In this document: positions 16,956-21,501 of the stretch, piece after piece | Layout of the letters: every line of letters begins with the position of its first letter | Numbering within the stretch: the first letter of the stretch is position 1 | Assembly: GCA_017437065.1 (NCBI GenBank) | Contig: JAFSBX010000107.1 | Location: forward strand, 1 to 50,032 | Source of the DNA: Lachnospiraceae bacterium | Lineage (GTDB): Bacteria > Bacillota > Clostridia > Lachnospirales > Lachnospiraceae | Length of the DNA: 50,032 bases | Direction of reading: 5' to 3' | Translations under genes and position numbers: made by a program | The notes under the pieces: generated by a model | What the model saw: only the letters and a program-made list of their open reading frames with translations | Told to the model about the DNA's origin: nothing | The model's database searches: none

Positions 16956-18011
16956 CTATGATACATGCTCCAGAACCACCCCATGTGCAATTCCCGGAAT
17001 ATTCTGTCCTTCATTAAAACTGGTTTTGGAAAGCAACGCACCTGTAGGAATAAAAAGTACTCGTTTCCAAATACCTTCTTCAATCTGTTTTAATACATAG
17101 GCTGACAGGACGGTAGCTGCACAGCCACAGCCGGAACCGCCTGCATGGGTATCCTGCTTTTGGGCATCGTAAATTTCAATACCACAGTCCATATGTTGTT
17201 CGGCAATATCAAAGCCCTGATCACGGAGAAGTTCTAAAAGTGCAGCTTGTCCTACCGTTCCCAAATCTCCGGTAATAATTTTGTCATAATCTTTAGGGCT
17301 TCTGTCAAAATCCATAAAATTCTGATAAATAACATTGCTGGCAGCCGGTGCCATACATGCGCCCATGTTCATGGAATCTTTCAATCCGTAATCCTGGATG
17401 ACGCCGGTGGTAATTCCTGTAATGCGGGCACGGACTTTTTCATTTTTCTCACGGCTGTTTGTTAAAACAAAGGCACCACTGCCGGTTACAGTCCATGTGG
17501 CAGAAAGGGGACGTTGGTTTCCGTATTCCAATGGGAAACGAAATTCTTTTTCCGCACTGGCAAAATGGCTGGAGGTAACGCAGACTACTTTGTCTGCAAA
17601 GCCTCCACAGATTGCCATAGAACCAAGGCTTAAGGATTCGCCGCAGGTAGAACAGGCGCCAAATAATCCGAAATAAGGAATTTCATAATTGAGAATACCG
17701 TAAGAGGATGCAATGGACTGACCCAGTAAGTCTCCGGCAAAAATATAGCGCATGTCGGAAGGTTTTAATTTTGCTTTTCCGAGTGCCATATAGACGGCAT
17801 CTTTTTGTAGGGTGCTTTCTGCAGCTTCCCAGTTGGGGCAGCCAAACATATCGTCAGAACCGACCATGTCAAAAAGGTCGGCTAATGGGCCTTGTCCTTC
17901 TTTTGTGCCTACGATGGAGGCACTTTCTTTTATAAAAATGTCTGTTTCATATTGTAGACTTTGTTTTCCTTTTTGGATTGTGTGTAAAGTGGTTGTTGGT
18001 TTTTGAATCAT
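16956..18011 (-). CDS. spoVAD: Stage V sporulation protein AD (SpoVAD), stand-alone
   Basis: A 351-residue SpoVAD homologue. SpoVAD has a thiolase-like fold, binds dipicolinic acid and works with the SpoVA channel that loads it into the forming spore. Conserved stretches are ESASIVGTKEGQGPL, FAGDLLGQ, FGLFGACSTCGESL, TSSHFASAEKEFRFP, ATWTVTGSGAFVL and the Gly/Cys-rich GGSGCGCAA near residue 290. Length is slightly above the usual ~338. AAAGGA precedes the ATG at 18011. In most spore formers it sits between spoVAC and spoVAE; here neither neighbour is present, the gene being flanked by a CYTH gene and a divergent glutamate-cysteine ligase. It may be a relocated copy or a second paralogue. Confidence 0.9.
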   Translation of the reverse strand: MIQKPTTTLHTIQKGKQSLQYETDIFIKESASIVGTKEGQGPLADLFDMVGSDDMFGCPNWEAAESTLQKDAVYMALGKAKLKPSDMRYIFAGDLLGQSIASSYGILNYEIPYFGLFGACSTCGESLSLGSMAICGGFADKVVCVTSSHFASAEKEFRFPLEYGNQRPLSATWTVTGSGAFVLTNSREKNEKVRARITGITTGVIQDYGLKDSMNMGACMAPAASNVIYQNFMDFDRSPKDYDKIITGDLGTVGQAALLELLRDQGFDIAEQHMDCGIEIYDAQKQDTHAGGSGCGCAATVLSAYVLKQIEEGIWKRVLFIPTGALLSKTSFNEGQNIPGIAHGVVLEHVS

Positions 18012-18235: not shown

Positions 18236-19447
18236 ATGAATAATATTAAAAAAATTGCAGATTACTTCCGGGCAGGAGAAAAAAAGGAATGTATCAATGT
18301 TGGCGTGGAAATAGAACACTTTATTATTGGAAAAGACGGTAATTCCATGGGCTATGAGCAAGTTGTGGAAATATTGGAAAAACTAAAGGAAGAAAGAGAT
18401 GTTCTGTATATGGAAGACGGAAATCTGCTCGGATTTTACAATTCGGATTATTCCATTACTTTGGAGCCTGCTTCCCAGATGGAAATCAGTATTGCTCCGA
18501 AGGAGAGTATTTCAGAAATAGAGAAGGTGTATAGAAATTTCAGAGAAAAAGCGGATAAGATACTGGAAAAAGAAGGATTTCATTTTGTAAATTCAGGGTA
18601 TCATCCTTATAAAAGAGCGGAGGAGCTTGAATTAATTCCGAAGCGAAGATACGAATATATGAATCAATATTTTAAAAATACCGGAAAATTAGGGAAAAAT
18701 ATGATGCGTGCCACAGCATCTACGCAGGTGTCGATTGACTATGAGAATGAAAAGGACTGTGTGGAAAAGTATAGGCTTGCGTGTGTGCTTTCGCCCGTTC
18801 TTGCATTGATGAACGCGAATAGTCCTGTATTTGAAGGAAAAAAAGCCGAAATGGAAATGGTGCGTACGGCAGTCTGGATGAATACAGACAGAGCGAGGTG
18901 TGGTATTTTTCCGGGAACTTTTTCAGAGGATTTTGGTTATAAAAAATATGCAGAATATTTGTATGGAAATCCACCGATTCTGGTTATGGATGAAGAGGGA
19001 AATGCTGTTTGTACGGGAAATAAGACATTAAGTGAAATTTATGAAGGCAGGGAAATGACAAGGAAAGAGGTAGAACATGCGATTTCCATGTTTTTTCCGG
19101 ATGTCAGATTGAAAAATTATATTGAAATACGAATGGCAGACAGTATGGAGACGGAAGATGTCATGGCTTATACTGCGATGATTAAGGCGATATTTTATCA
19201 AAAAGAGATTAGGGAAGAATTGGTTGCTTATTTTGGACAGGTCACGGAAGAACAGATTGAGCAGGCCAAATATTCTCTTACAAGGAATGGATATGGAGGA
19301 GAAGTTTACGGCAAACCGATTACGGAAGTTGTGAAAAAACTGACAGAGCTCCTTAAGGAATTGGGGAATGATGAAATAAAGCATTATATTGACTATGAGA
19401 GAATATTTGAAAAAATGATGCTGCAAGGAGGCAAAAATGGAAGATAA
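18236..19447 (+). CDS. Glutamate-cysteine ligase (GCS2-like)
   Basis: A 403-residue ATP-dependent carboxylate-amine ligase of the glutamate-cysteine ligase family, plant/alphaproteobacterial (GCS2) type, forming gamma-glutamylcysteine or a similar gamma-glutamyl amide. The start of the catalytic fold, VGVEIEHFIIG (residues 22-32), and the MRATASTQVSIDY, RTAVWMNTDRAR, and EIRMADSME segments match the family. The ATG at 18236 has GGTGA shortly upstream. Its last four codons overlap the next gene, an ATP-grasp ligase with a strong AAGGAGG inside this gene, so the two are almost certainly co-translated. No glutathione synthetase (gshB) or GshF fusion is present. Substrates other than cysteine are possible. 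Confidence 0.85.
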   Translation: MNNIKKIADYFRAGEKKECINVGVEIEHFIIGKDGNSMGYEQVVEILEKLKEERDVLYMEDGNLLGFYNSDYSITLEPASQMEISIAPKESISEIEKVYRNFREKADKILEKEGFHFVNSGYHPYKRAEELELIPKRRYEYMNQYFKNTGKLGKNMMRATASTQVSIDYENEKDCVEKYRLACVLSPVLALMNANSPVFEGKKAEMEMVRTAVWMNTDRARCGIFPGTFSEDFGYKKYAEYLYGNPPILVMDEEGNAVCTGNKTLSEIYEGREMTRKEVEHAISMFFPDVRLKNYIEIRMADSMETEDVMAYTAMIKAIFYQKEIREELVAYFGQVTEEQIEQAKYSLTRNGYGGEVYGKPITEVVKKLTELLKELGNDEIKHYIDYERIFEKMMLQGGKNGR

Positions 19448-20810
19448 AAGAGAAAAAAGCTTAGCGAAAATAAATGCAGAATATCAGAGTCTGATAAAAG
19501 AAGACAGAGAGGCAGATTACCTGTCTGCCCAGGAAACTTTTCAGTATATACAAAATTCTACCGCAAAATATCACGGAAGATGTGTCAGAACCTTATATAT
19601 TCCCAAAATCTTCCGGGAAGCAGACATTAAGATATTTGAAAAAGCAGTGACGGATTTGTATGGAATTTTCGATAAAGTCATGAAAGCTTATGCAGAGGAT
19701 GCAGAGTACCGTAAGCTGTTTGGATTTGATAAGACACTGGAAGAACTGATTTTACGGGAAAAAACATATGCAAGTAACATTCCGATTGCCAGAATTGATA
19801 TATTCTACAATGAAGAAAACGGCGATTTTAAATTTTGCGAATTTAATACGGACGGCAGCAGTGCCATGAATGAAGACAGGGAACTAAACAATGCAATCCG
19901 CCTGACAAAAGCGTATCAGGAATTTGCCGCAAAATATGAAATTCACACCTTTGAACTGTTTGATACATGGGTGGATGAATTTTTGTGCATTTATGCGGAT
20001 TTTGCAAAAAATACAGGACATATCGGAGCGGGAGAAAACGGAAATCCGCAGGTTGTCATTACAGATTTCATGGAAAATGCCACAGAGCAGGAATTTAAAA
20101 TTTTTAAAGAACGTTTTGAAAGACAAGGGATTCGAGCAGAACTTTGTGAAATCCGTGACCTGCAATATAAAGACGGAAAGCTGTATACAAAGGAAGGAAT
20201 GGCAGTGGACGCCATTTACAGACGTGCCGTAACCAGTGATATTATGAAGCATTACGACGAAGTGACGGATTTTCTGCAGGCGGTGAAGGACAATGCGGTA
20301 TGTCTGATTGGAGAATTCAGGACGCAGATTGCCCACAATAAAATTTTATTTAAAATACTGCACGATGAAAAAACAAAGGCTTTATTAACGGAAGAAGAGC
20401 AGGAATATGTGAGAAAGCACATACCCGTTACCGTAAACTTGGAACATGGGAAATTTGACTATGAGGAAGTAATTAAAAATAAAAACAACTGGATTATCAA
20501 GCCGGAAGATTCTTACGGTTCCCAAAGAGTTTTTGCGGGGGTGGAATATGAAGCAGAGGAATGGAAAGAAAAGGTGGATGAAGCAATCGGGAAAGACTAC
20601 CTTTTACAGGAATTCTGTCTGCCTTATGAAACAAAAAATTTGGATTTAATGCAGAAAAAAGATGCAGAATACCGTAATTACAGCAATCTTACGGGAATGT
20701 TTGTTTATAATGGAAAATTTAGGGGAATTTACTCCAGAATATCTCAAAGTGAGATTATTTCTACCCAGTATAGTGAGATGGCGTTGGCGACCATTTGGAT
20801 AAAGGATTAA
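19437..20810 (+). CDS. Glutathionylspermidine-synthase-like ATP-grasp ligase
   Basis: A 457-residue protein of the glutathionylspermidine synthase pre-ATP-grasp family. Family motifs include RIDIFYNEENGDFKFCEFN, NTDGSSAMNEDREL (about residues 138-151), the ATP-grasp lysine region NNWIIKPEDSYGSQRVFAG, LLQEFCLP and the terminal GMFVYNGKFRGIYSRISQ. It lacks the amidase domain of E. coli Gss. Known members form a peptide bond between a peptide carboxylate and an amine such as spermidine, but stand-alone homologues have diverse or unknown substrates. It overlaps the glutamate-cysteine ligase by 11 bases, with AAGGAGG at 19425-19431, so the substrate is probably the gamma-glutamyl product of that enzyme. 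The amine acceptor and final product are unknown. Confidence 0.82.
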   Translation: MEDKREKSLAKINAEYQSLIKEDREADYLSAQETFQYIQNSTAKYHGRCVRTLYIPKIFREADIKIFEKAVTDLYGIFDKVMKAYAEDAEYRKLFGFDKTLEELILREKTYASNIPIARIDIFYNEENGDFKFCEFNTDGSSAMNEDRELNNAIRLTKAYQEFAAKYEIHTFELFDTWVDEFLCIYADFAKNTGHIGAGENGNPQVVITDFMENATEQEFKIFKERFERQGIRAELCEIRDLQYKDGKLYTKEGMAVDAIYRRAVTSDIMKHYDEVTDFLQAVKDNAVCLIGEFRTQIAHNKILFKILHDEKTKALLTEEEQEYVRKHIPVTVNLEHGKFDYEEVIKNKNNWIIKPEDSYGSQRVFAGVEYEAEEWKEKVDEAIGKDYLLQEFCLPYETKNLDLMQKKDAEYRNYSNLTGMFVYNGKFRGIYSRISQSEIISTQYSEMALATIWIKD

Positions 20811-20946: not shown

Positions 20947-21501
20947 ATGAGCGAAGTTTGTATGTTTTTTGGAACAGGATATGAAGAAGTGGAGGCACTG
21001 GCAGCAGTAGATATCATGCGTCGTGCGGGAATTGAAGTAGATATGGTTTCTATTACGGGAGAAAAATATGTGACAAGTTCACACAAAGTAACAATAGAAA
21101 TGGACTGCCTGTTGGAAGATGTGGATTTTGAGAAGGTTAAGATGATTGTACTGCCGGGCGGGATGCCGGGAACAACGAATTTGGAAGCTTGTTCACCGCT
21201 TATGGAGCAGGTGGAAAAATTTTATGAGCAGAAAAAGCTGCTTGCAGCAATTTGTGCAGCACCGAGTATTTTAGGACACAGAGGCATGTTAAAGGGAAGA
21301 AAAGCCTGCTGTTATCCTTCTTTCGAAAGCCATTTGGAGGGAGCTGAGGTTACAGAAAATCCCTGTGAAGTATCAGATCACATCATTACTTCAAGAGGAA
21401 TGGGATGTGCAGTGGATTTCGGTCTTGCCATTGTAGAAAAGTTGAAAGGTACGGAGGAAGCAGAAAGAATAGCAGAGAGCATTATTTATAATGCAAAATA
21501 A
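20947..21501 (+). CDS. DJ-1/PfpI family protein
   Basis: A 184-residue single-domain DJ-1/YajL-type protein. The reactive cysteine is in LLAAICAAPSILG (Cys about 103) on the nucleophile elbow and its partner Glu is in GYEEVEAL (about residue 14), as in thiamine-biosynthesis ThiJ/YajL relatives. Functions described for the family include glyoxalase III-like and chaperone or oxidative-stress roles; the specific one is not readable. The ATG at 20947 with GGAGAGG at 20934-20940 is preferred to a TTG at 20932. It follows the ligase pair by 136 bases with its own leader, so it may be separately transcribed although a thiol-stress connection is attractive. Confidence 0.88.
   Translation: MSEVCMFFGTGYEEVEALAAVDIMRRAGIEVDMVSITGEKYVTSSHKVTIEMDCLLEDVDFEKVKMIVLPGGMPGTTNLEACSPLMEQVEKFYEQKKLLAAICAAPSILGHRGMLKGRKACCYPSFESHLEGAEVTENPCEVSDHIITSRGMGCAVDFGLAIVEKLKGTEEAERIAESIIYNAK

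Follow-up and report, generated by a model that had tools for sequence, protein, structure and literature searches.

A glutamate-cysteine ligase paired with a circularly permuted ATP-grasp ligase in Clostridia: a candidate two-step pathway to a glutathione-type thiol

Introduction

In GshF a glutamate-cysteine ligase (GCL) comes first and an ATP-grasp ligase second, with γ-glutamylcysteine (γ-Glu-Cys) as the expected intermediate. The same order is seen in two overlapping genes of a Lachnospiraceae bacterium, which lie in the 50,032-nucleotide stretch of DNA analysed here (the window; contig C96 of the 3.9-Mb genome G000). The first gene (18236..19447, + strand, ATG start) encodes a 403-residue GCL of the GCS2 or plant type and the second (19437..20810, + strand, ATG start) encodes a 457-residue circularly permuted ATP-grasp ligase, called AG below. 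As with GshF, the pair is found in one operon or one chain. However, the GCL of GshF is of the GshA type and its synthetase is a cyanophycin-synthetase/Ddl-like ATP-grasp enzyme, whereas the window GCL belongs with the plant enzymes and EgtA and AG is circularly permuted. The split gshA and gshB genes of the clostridial genome G445 are likewise neighbours and carry out the same two steps, although both of those enzymes come from other families than the window pair.

Each member of the pair also has described relatives of its own. The window GCL shares its family (GCS2) and its conserved motif blocks with plant-type GCLs and EgtA, but scores under the equivalog cut-offs of both and has AG as its partner. 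AG has in common with YgiC, YjfC and the synthetase domain of Gss the circularly permuted ATP-grasp type and the catalytic positions. Unlike these proteins it has no amidase domain, lacks several residues invariant in the E. coli ligases (judged by eye) and nearly always occurs in a genome that also encodes a GCL. The best match to the AG profile among solved structures is Cp1B (9cjn) of the E-64 pathway, an ATP-grasp enzyme reported to couple a carboxylate to an L-amino acid (PMC12568646). Cp1B is fungal, acts on epoxysuccinate and has other partner genes. The same source counts homoglutathione synthetase and the peptide-spermidine ligases YgiC and YjfC among the closest structural homologues of Cp1B, and therefore both amino-acid and amine acceptors exist among the relatives of AG.

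Glutathione is not foreign to Clostridia, since Clostridium perfringens is reported to have both glutathione and a bifunctional gshAB (PMC2940859). No described clostridial pathway built from a GCL and an ATP-grasp ligase of this kind was recognised among the literature matches listed, as judged from titles and the starts of abstracts and with most subscription journals outside the scope. We propose that GCL and AG may by themselves suffice to make a glutathione-type thiol in two steps, with AG standing in for GshB or GshF, a reading to which we give a rough probability of 0.57. A survey of amidoligases by Iyer and colleagues may hold an earlier mention of such a pair.

Results

The two genes of the window overlap by 11 bases (19437..19447, + strand, from the ends of the open reading frames). 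A Shine-Dalgarno sequence for AG, AAGGAGG (19425..19431, + strand), ends five bases before the AG ATG. It lies within the 3' end of the GCL gene, where a first-pass annotation of the window had described the overlap and a strong ribosome site. A scan of a species-genome collection gave 219 AG relatives, the best 80 of which were kept; AG was recovered in all 80 of these loci. A GCL gene was directly upstream on the same strand in 49 and fused to AG in 9, whereas 19 AG genes were solo and 3 lay at contig ends. The best 80 relatives and further loci were combined in an AG tree of 117 distinct rows, with 17 rows that shared an identical stretch with another row dropped and locus L095 relabelled as an operon by hand. 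The rows comprised 76 operons, 10 fusions, 28 solo genes and 3 contig-end cases, and the adjacent pair that the first-pass annotation had proposed to seek across Clostridia was thus present as operon or fusion in 76 plus 10 of the 114 loci away from contig ends. Parsimony on this tree required 2 changes to account for fusion and 14 or more to account for the solo state, and operon-type rows were found on both sides of the midpoint root. The gap between the two genes was negative, as in the window, in 53 of 85 operons when starts were taken as the first ATG, GTG or TTG.

GCL-AG pairs occur in the window's own family and in eight further families of Clostridia, nine in all, and because of this recurrence chance or artefact was rejected as their explanation. 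Clustering of the neighbouring genes found no other family in more than 9 of 77 AG loci, so the two enzymes look sufficient. No ratio of nonsynonymous to synonymous substitution was obtained between the genus members, as synonymous sites were saturated or the ratio was not computable. The conserved operon, the recurrent fusion and the near-obligate co-occurrence of the genes support the view that GCL and AG act together.

Co-occurrence was scored in the window's family (397 genomes) and across the wider taxonomic class, with at most four candidates scored per genome in the family scans for AG and GCL, two in the GshF scan and six in the wider-class scan. In the family 51 genomes had AG, 43 had a GCS2 GCL and 32 had a GshA/GshF-type GCL; a GCL was assigned to the GshA type here when the N-terminal part of NF002688 matched it with an E below 1e-50. 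Two genomes with weak partial AG matches (G325 and G385) were excluded to leave 49 AG genomes; when both are included, 48 of 51 have a GCL. A GCL of either type was carried by 48 of the 49 AG-positive genomes versus 24 of the 348 AG-negative genomes. Among the 13 AG genomes that lack a GCS2 GCL, 12 carry a GshA/GshF-type GCL, which argues for γ-Glu-Cys as the intermediate shared by both arrangements. AG and the GCS2 GCL were on one contig in 31 of the 36 family genomes having both, and in G419 AG and a GshA-type gene stand head to head, 133 bases apart. The wider-class scan gave 24 AG matches, of which 17 were kept (G486, G489, G544, G582 and G678 were dropped as weak, G000 and G286 as members of the window's family), and its AG-negative sample consisted of 55 tested genomes of 250. 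Outside the window's family all 17 AG genomes, from 8 families, had a GCS2 GCL, which was adjacent to AG in 16, versus one of the 55 AG-negative genomes. A GCL together with a second ATP-dependent ligase, the combination that a glutathione pathway would need, is therefore encoded in 48 of 49 and 17 of 17 AG genomes.

Classical synthetases were also sought. Scoring of up to two candidates per genome brought no GshF (NF002688) match above the cut-off in any of the 397 family genomes, the best one in G000 having an E of 1.9e-7, under the cut-off; GshB (TIGR01380) was not found above the cut-off in 72 genomes and gave no match in G000. The first-pass annotation had noted the lack of gshB and gshF near the pair and had held that a complete glutathione synthetase elsewhere, with the pair inactive, would speak against its proposal; G000 as a whole has neither above cut-off. 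AG (49 of 397 family genomes) is a plausible candidate for the missing glutathione-type synthetase of those Clostridia that have a GCL but no GshB or GshF above cut-off.

Further information came from the sole AG-negative carrier of a GCS2 GCL among the 55 genomes tested outside the family, G449. In a GCL tree from which partial GCLs under 280 residues were left out, the G449 GCL is nested among AG-paired GCLs, with 59% identity to that of L183 and a Shimodaira-Hasegawa-like approximate likelihood ratio test (SH-aLRT) value of 98. The genome encodes a stand-alone GshF-type synthetase (518.8 bits, cut-off 425) on another contig than the GCL gene, and this protein is 59% identical to the synthetase beside gshA in G445. 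The pattern, in this one case, is the one expected had a classical glutathione synthetase replaced AG. Of the AG genomes outside the window's family, G639 also has a GshF-type synthetase, and none of the other 16 has one above the cut-off. The first-pass annotation had reasoned that normal glutathione is not the evident product because gshB and gshF are absent. That reasoning is not supported, since AG itself may be the missing synthetase, which is the simplest reading, and G449 has a GshF-type synthetase in its place.

The GCL protein of the window matches GCS2 (PF04107) at 134.5 bits (cut-off 21) and E 6e-39. Among NCBIfam models it scores best against TIGR01436, for plant-type glutamate-cysteine ligase (209 bits, under its cut-off of 463), and next against EgtA TIGR03444 (132 bits, under 371), and the closest solved relatives are the plant glutamate-cysteine ligases 6gmo and 2gwc (E 1e-45). 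An alignment of 6 sequences including that of the window showed residues E25, E27, E77, Q81, E83, Q164, E297 and R299 to be invariant, as were the motif blocks GxExEHF, EPAxQxEIS, MMRxxASxQ and FxDVRLKxYxExR. Its family membership suggests that the enzyme would convert Glu and Cys to γ-Glu-Cys.

Assignment of AG was less direct. As a single query the window protein matched CP_ATPgrasp_2 at 28.7 bits, under the Pfam cut-off of 32, other matches were weaker and GSP_synth gave no match. Among 69 members of the AG family, 42 matched CP_ATPgrasp_2 and 24 matched GSP_synth (PF03738; E up to 0.1 for both), the latter with a best E of 3e-9. The first-pass annotation had called the protein glutathionylspermidine-synthase-like, with the synthetase half only, and this is right at the superfamily level. 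The eukaryotic-type glutathione synthetase families PF03917 and PF03199 were absent among the matches listed for AG members, where 25 of the 26 Pfam families were given; such resemblance as there is to this type comes through Cp1B. When the 69 sequences were made into a profile, it found Cp1B (9cjn) in the Protein Data Bank with E 3e-5 and trypanothione synthetase with E 0.003; the match to 3n6x, a putative glutathionylspermidine synthase, was not significant (E 0.32). In hhalign comparisons AG aligned with the synthetase part of E. coli Gss at E 2e-4 and only weakly with YgiC (0.037).

The Gss alignment placed AG residues R119, D121, E135, N137 and K302 opposite Gss R316, D318, E330, N332 and K498, and K355 and R434 fit Gss K533 and R598 when placed by eye. 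We take these Gss positions to have catalytic roles. All seven AG residues are identical in 69 of 69 sequences, the window protein included, and AG is thus not visibly degenerate, a loss that the first-pass annotation had named as grounds for abandoning its proposal. AG residue E219 is also invariant in the 69 sequences and aligns (hhalign) with Gss E392, which presumably has a role in spermidine handling. By eye, AG has YRR in place of the K-x-x-x-x-E of the E. coli peptide-spermidine ligases and KPxDSY in place of KPIxxR; all three E. coli ligases share the Glu of the first motif and the Arg of the second, neither of which AG keeps. As a member of this superfamily AG is expected to use ATP-grasp chemistry, with an acyl phosphate intermediate.

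Discussion

In the proposed pathway GCL would use ATP to join the γ-carboxyl of Glu to Cys, and AG would then activate the Cys carboxylate of γ-Glu-Cys as an acyl phosphate and add an amino acid, most likely glycine, to give glutathione. AG, though not orthologous to them, would replace GshB and the synthetase half of GshF, and the fused GCL-AG proteins would be an independent counterpart of GshF. To judge from the swap and partner patterns, AG very probably acts on γ-Glu-Cys. That its acceptor is glycine has somewhat better than even odds in our estimation; another amino acid such as β-Ala, Ser or Glu seems unlikely, and a polyamine or other amine improbable. If the product is glutathione, searches for GshB and GshF would overlook gut anaerobes that make it. 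If not, the product would be a new thiol. We hold it rather less likely than not that the pair makes γ-Glu-Cys-X with X other than glycine, a thiol tripeptide or amide that would be new among the low-molecular-weight thiols of gut Clostridia.

Several observations weigh against the proposal. AG and the GCS2 GCL are on different contigs in 5 of 36 genomes (G112, G228, G244, G277 and G356), G410 has AG but no detected GCL, and 24 of 72 GCL-carrying family genomes lack AG, so that GCL has another use there. Fisher tests of the co-occurrence are extreme, but they count related genomes as independent and their p-values overstate the significance. The apparent swap in G449 is a single case with the synthetase on another contig. 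The distribution of small glutaredoxins leans weakly to a glutathione-like thiol: they were found in 8 of 37 AG-positive versus 1 of 35 AG-negative genomes of a first set, by a criterion chosen after seeing the data, and in 9 of 49 versus 3 of 103 genomes when all were combined. In the replicate, for which the criterion was fixed beforehand, the counts were 1 of 12 versus 2 of 68 and not significant (p 0.39). Moreover, glutaredoxin tracks the presence of any GCL at least as strongly as that of AG (11 of 63 versus 1 of 89), and 40 of the 49 AG genomes, G000 among them, have no small glutaredoxin by the same criterion.

The lack of glutaredoxin in those 40 genomes would fit a pathway that keeps the two-step logic but adds a third residue other than glycine, giving a homoglutathione-like product with β-Ala, or a thiol with Ser, Glu or another residue. 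AG and the bacterial synthetases that add glycine belong to different families, homoglutathione synthetase is among the closest structural homologues given for Cp1B, and G639 keeps both GCL-AG and a GshF-type synthetase, which would be redundant if both made glutathione and looks as if their products differ. Such a product nevertheless seems unlikely to us, as G449 has a GshF-type synthetase, not AG, alongside a GCL of the same lineage, and the neighbouring genes give no hint of a special amino acid. AG might also link γ-Glu-Cys to a polyamine or other amine as Gss, YgiC and YjfC do. An amine acceptor is conceivable because AG aligns with Gss and YgiC, to which it is related at the superfamily level, and because of its invariant E219 at the position of Gss E392; G000 itself has a spermidine synthase above cut-off. 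However, spermidine synthase is found above cut-off in 11 of 37 AG-positive genomes (G000 included) versus 20 of 35 AG-negative genomes. This is the wrong direction for an obligate spermidine conjugate, which is not supported by these counts, although uptake or other polyamines are possible, and together with the lack in AG of the Glu and Arg invariant in the E. coli ligases (by eye) it makes the amine alternative quite improbable. The two-step scheme of the first-pass annotation, formation of γ-Glu-X and then ligation, is thus supported by the pairing, fusion and co-occurrence data, whereas its polyamine option is weakened. Least probable of all is that GCL is a carboxylate-amine ligase acting on another substrate and that the pair makes a γ-Glu-X peptide unrelated to cysteine. 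The best curated GCL models do score under their cut-offs (209 of 463 bits for TIGR01436), but among solved structures its best relatives are glutamate-cysteine ligases of plants, and a GshA/GshF-type GCL takes the place of the GCS2 enzyme in 12 of 13 AG genomes.

Neighbouring genes and related loci

Downstream of GCL-AG in the window are a DJ-1 gene (20947-21501; TIGR01383 above cut-off), which starts 136 bases past the end of AG, and a Na/Pi cotransporter gene. DJ-1 follows the pair in all three genus members read (the window, L009 and L010), as the first-pass annotation had noted for the window. Among the listed same-strand downstream genes of L016 to L095, judged by protein starts, it is seen only at L016 and L017, which stand for the same two relatives as L009 and L010. 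DJ-1 is a genus-level neighbour outside the module and was rejected as a pathway component beyond the genus, since it is missing from the downstream genes listed for other relatives. Upstream of GCL and divergent from it is a spoVAD-like gene (16956-18011, - strand), which adjoins a gene for a CYTH-domain protein; no further spoVA genes were present among the neighbours scanned for families.

Solo AG genes have neighbours of their own. In a Roseburia-like clade (L018-L023) the solo AG gene is followed by one whose membrane-like product, about 200 residues long, is conserved; the L020 copy of this protein has no NCBIfam match. A protein of about 99 residues precedes solo AG in L037, L038, L055 and L064, and its L037 copy is weakly like the NF007791 isomerase (33 bits, under cut-off). 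Loci L026 and L095 come from records titled Bacteroides and Elusimicrobiaceae. The AG of the Bacteroides-titled record is nearly identical to that of G415 in the window's family and the AG of the Elusimicrobiaceae-titled record falls within a group of that family, which in both cases means misbinning or transfer.

In AG-less genomes GCL often has a different partner. An EgtC/YafJ-type amidotransferase-like protein adjoins GCL in 12 of the 15 such genomes read (by profile for one of the 12 and for the G012 protein), which suggests that GCL serves another purpose there; YafJ is the name that we take to apply to class II amidotransferase-like proteins of the MCELFG type. Among the AG-less genomes with a GCS2 GCL, 6 of 7 have the GCL gene adjoining one for a protein that starts with MCELFG, MCEIFG or MCEVFG, and the six GCLs form one clade. 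The loci are L135 4265-6278, L136 6202-8290, L137 5785-7771, L138 6409-8398, L139 2354-4576 and L140 4964-6962. The L135 neighbour matches the EgtC profile at 62 bits, under the cut-off, and the other five were judged by protein starts. In G012 a single-strand run (L013 10-5023) contains a GCS2 GCL, AG, a GshA-type GCL and an EgtC-like protein. A GshA-type GCL, an EgtC/YafJ-like protein and a divergent GCS2 ligase are clustered in L142 3519-7020, L149 4819-8476 and L145 4236-7727, and in L145 the GshA-type and divergent GCS2 ligases form one chain of 880 residues. In L143, L144, L147 and L149 the genes for the GshA-type GCL and the EgtC/YafJ-like protein lie near cysteine synthase-like genes, as judged from protein starts.

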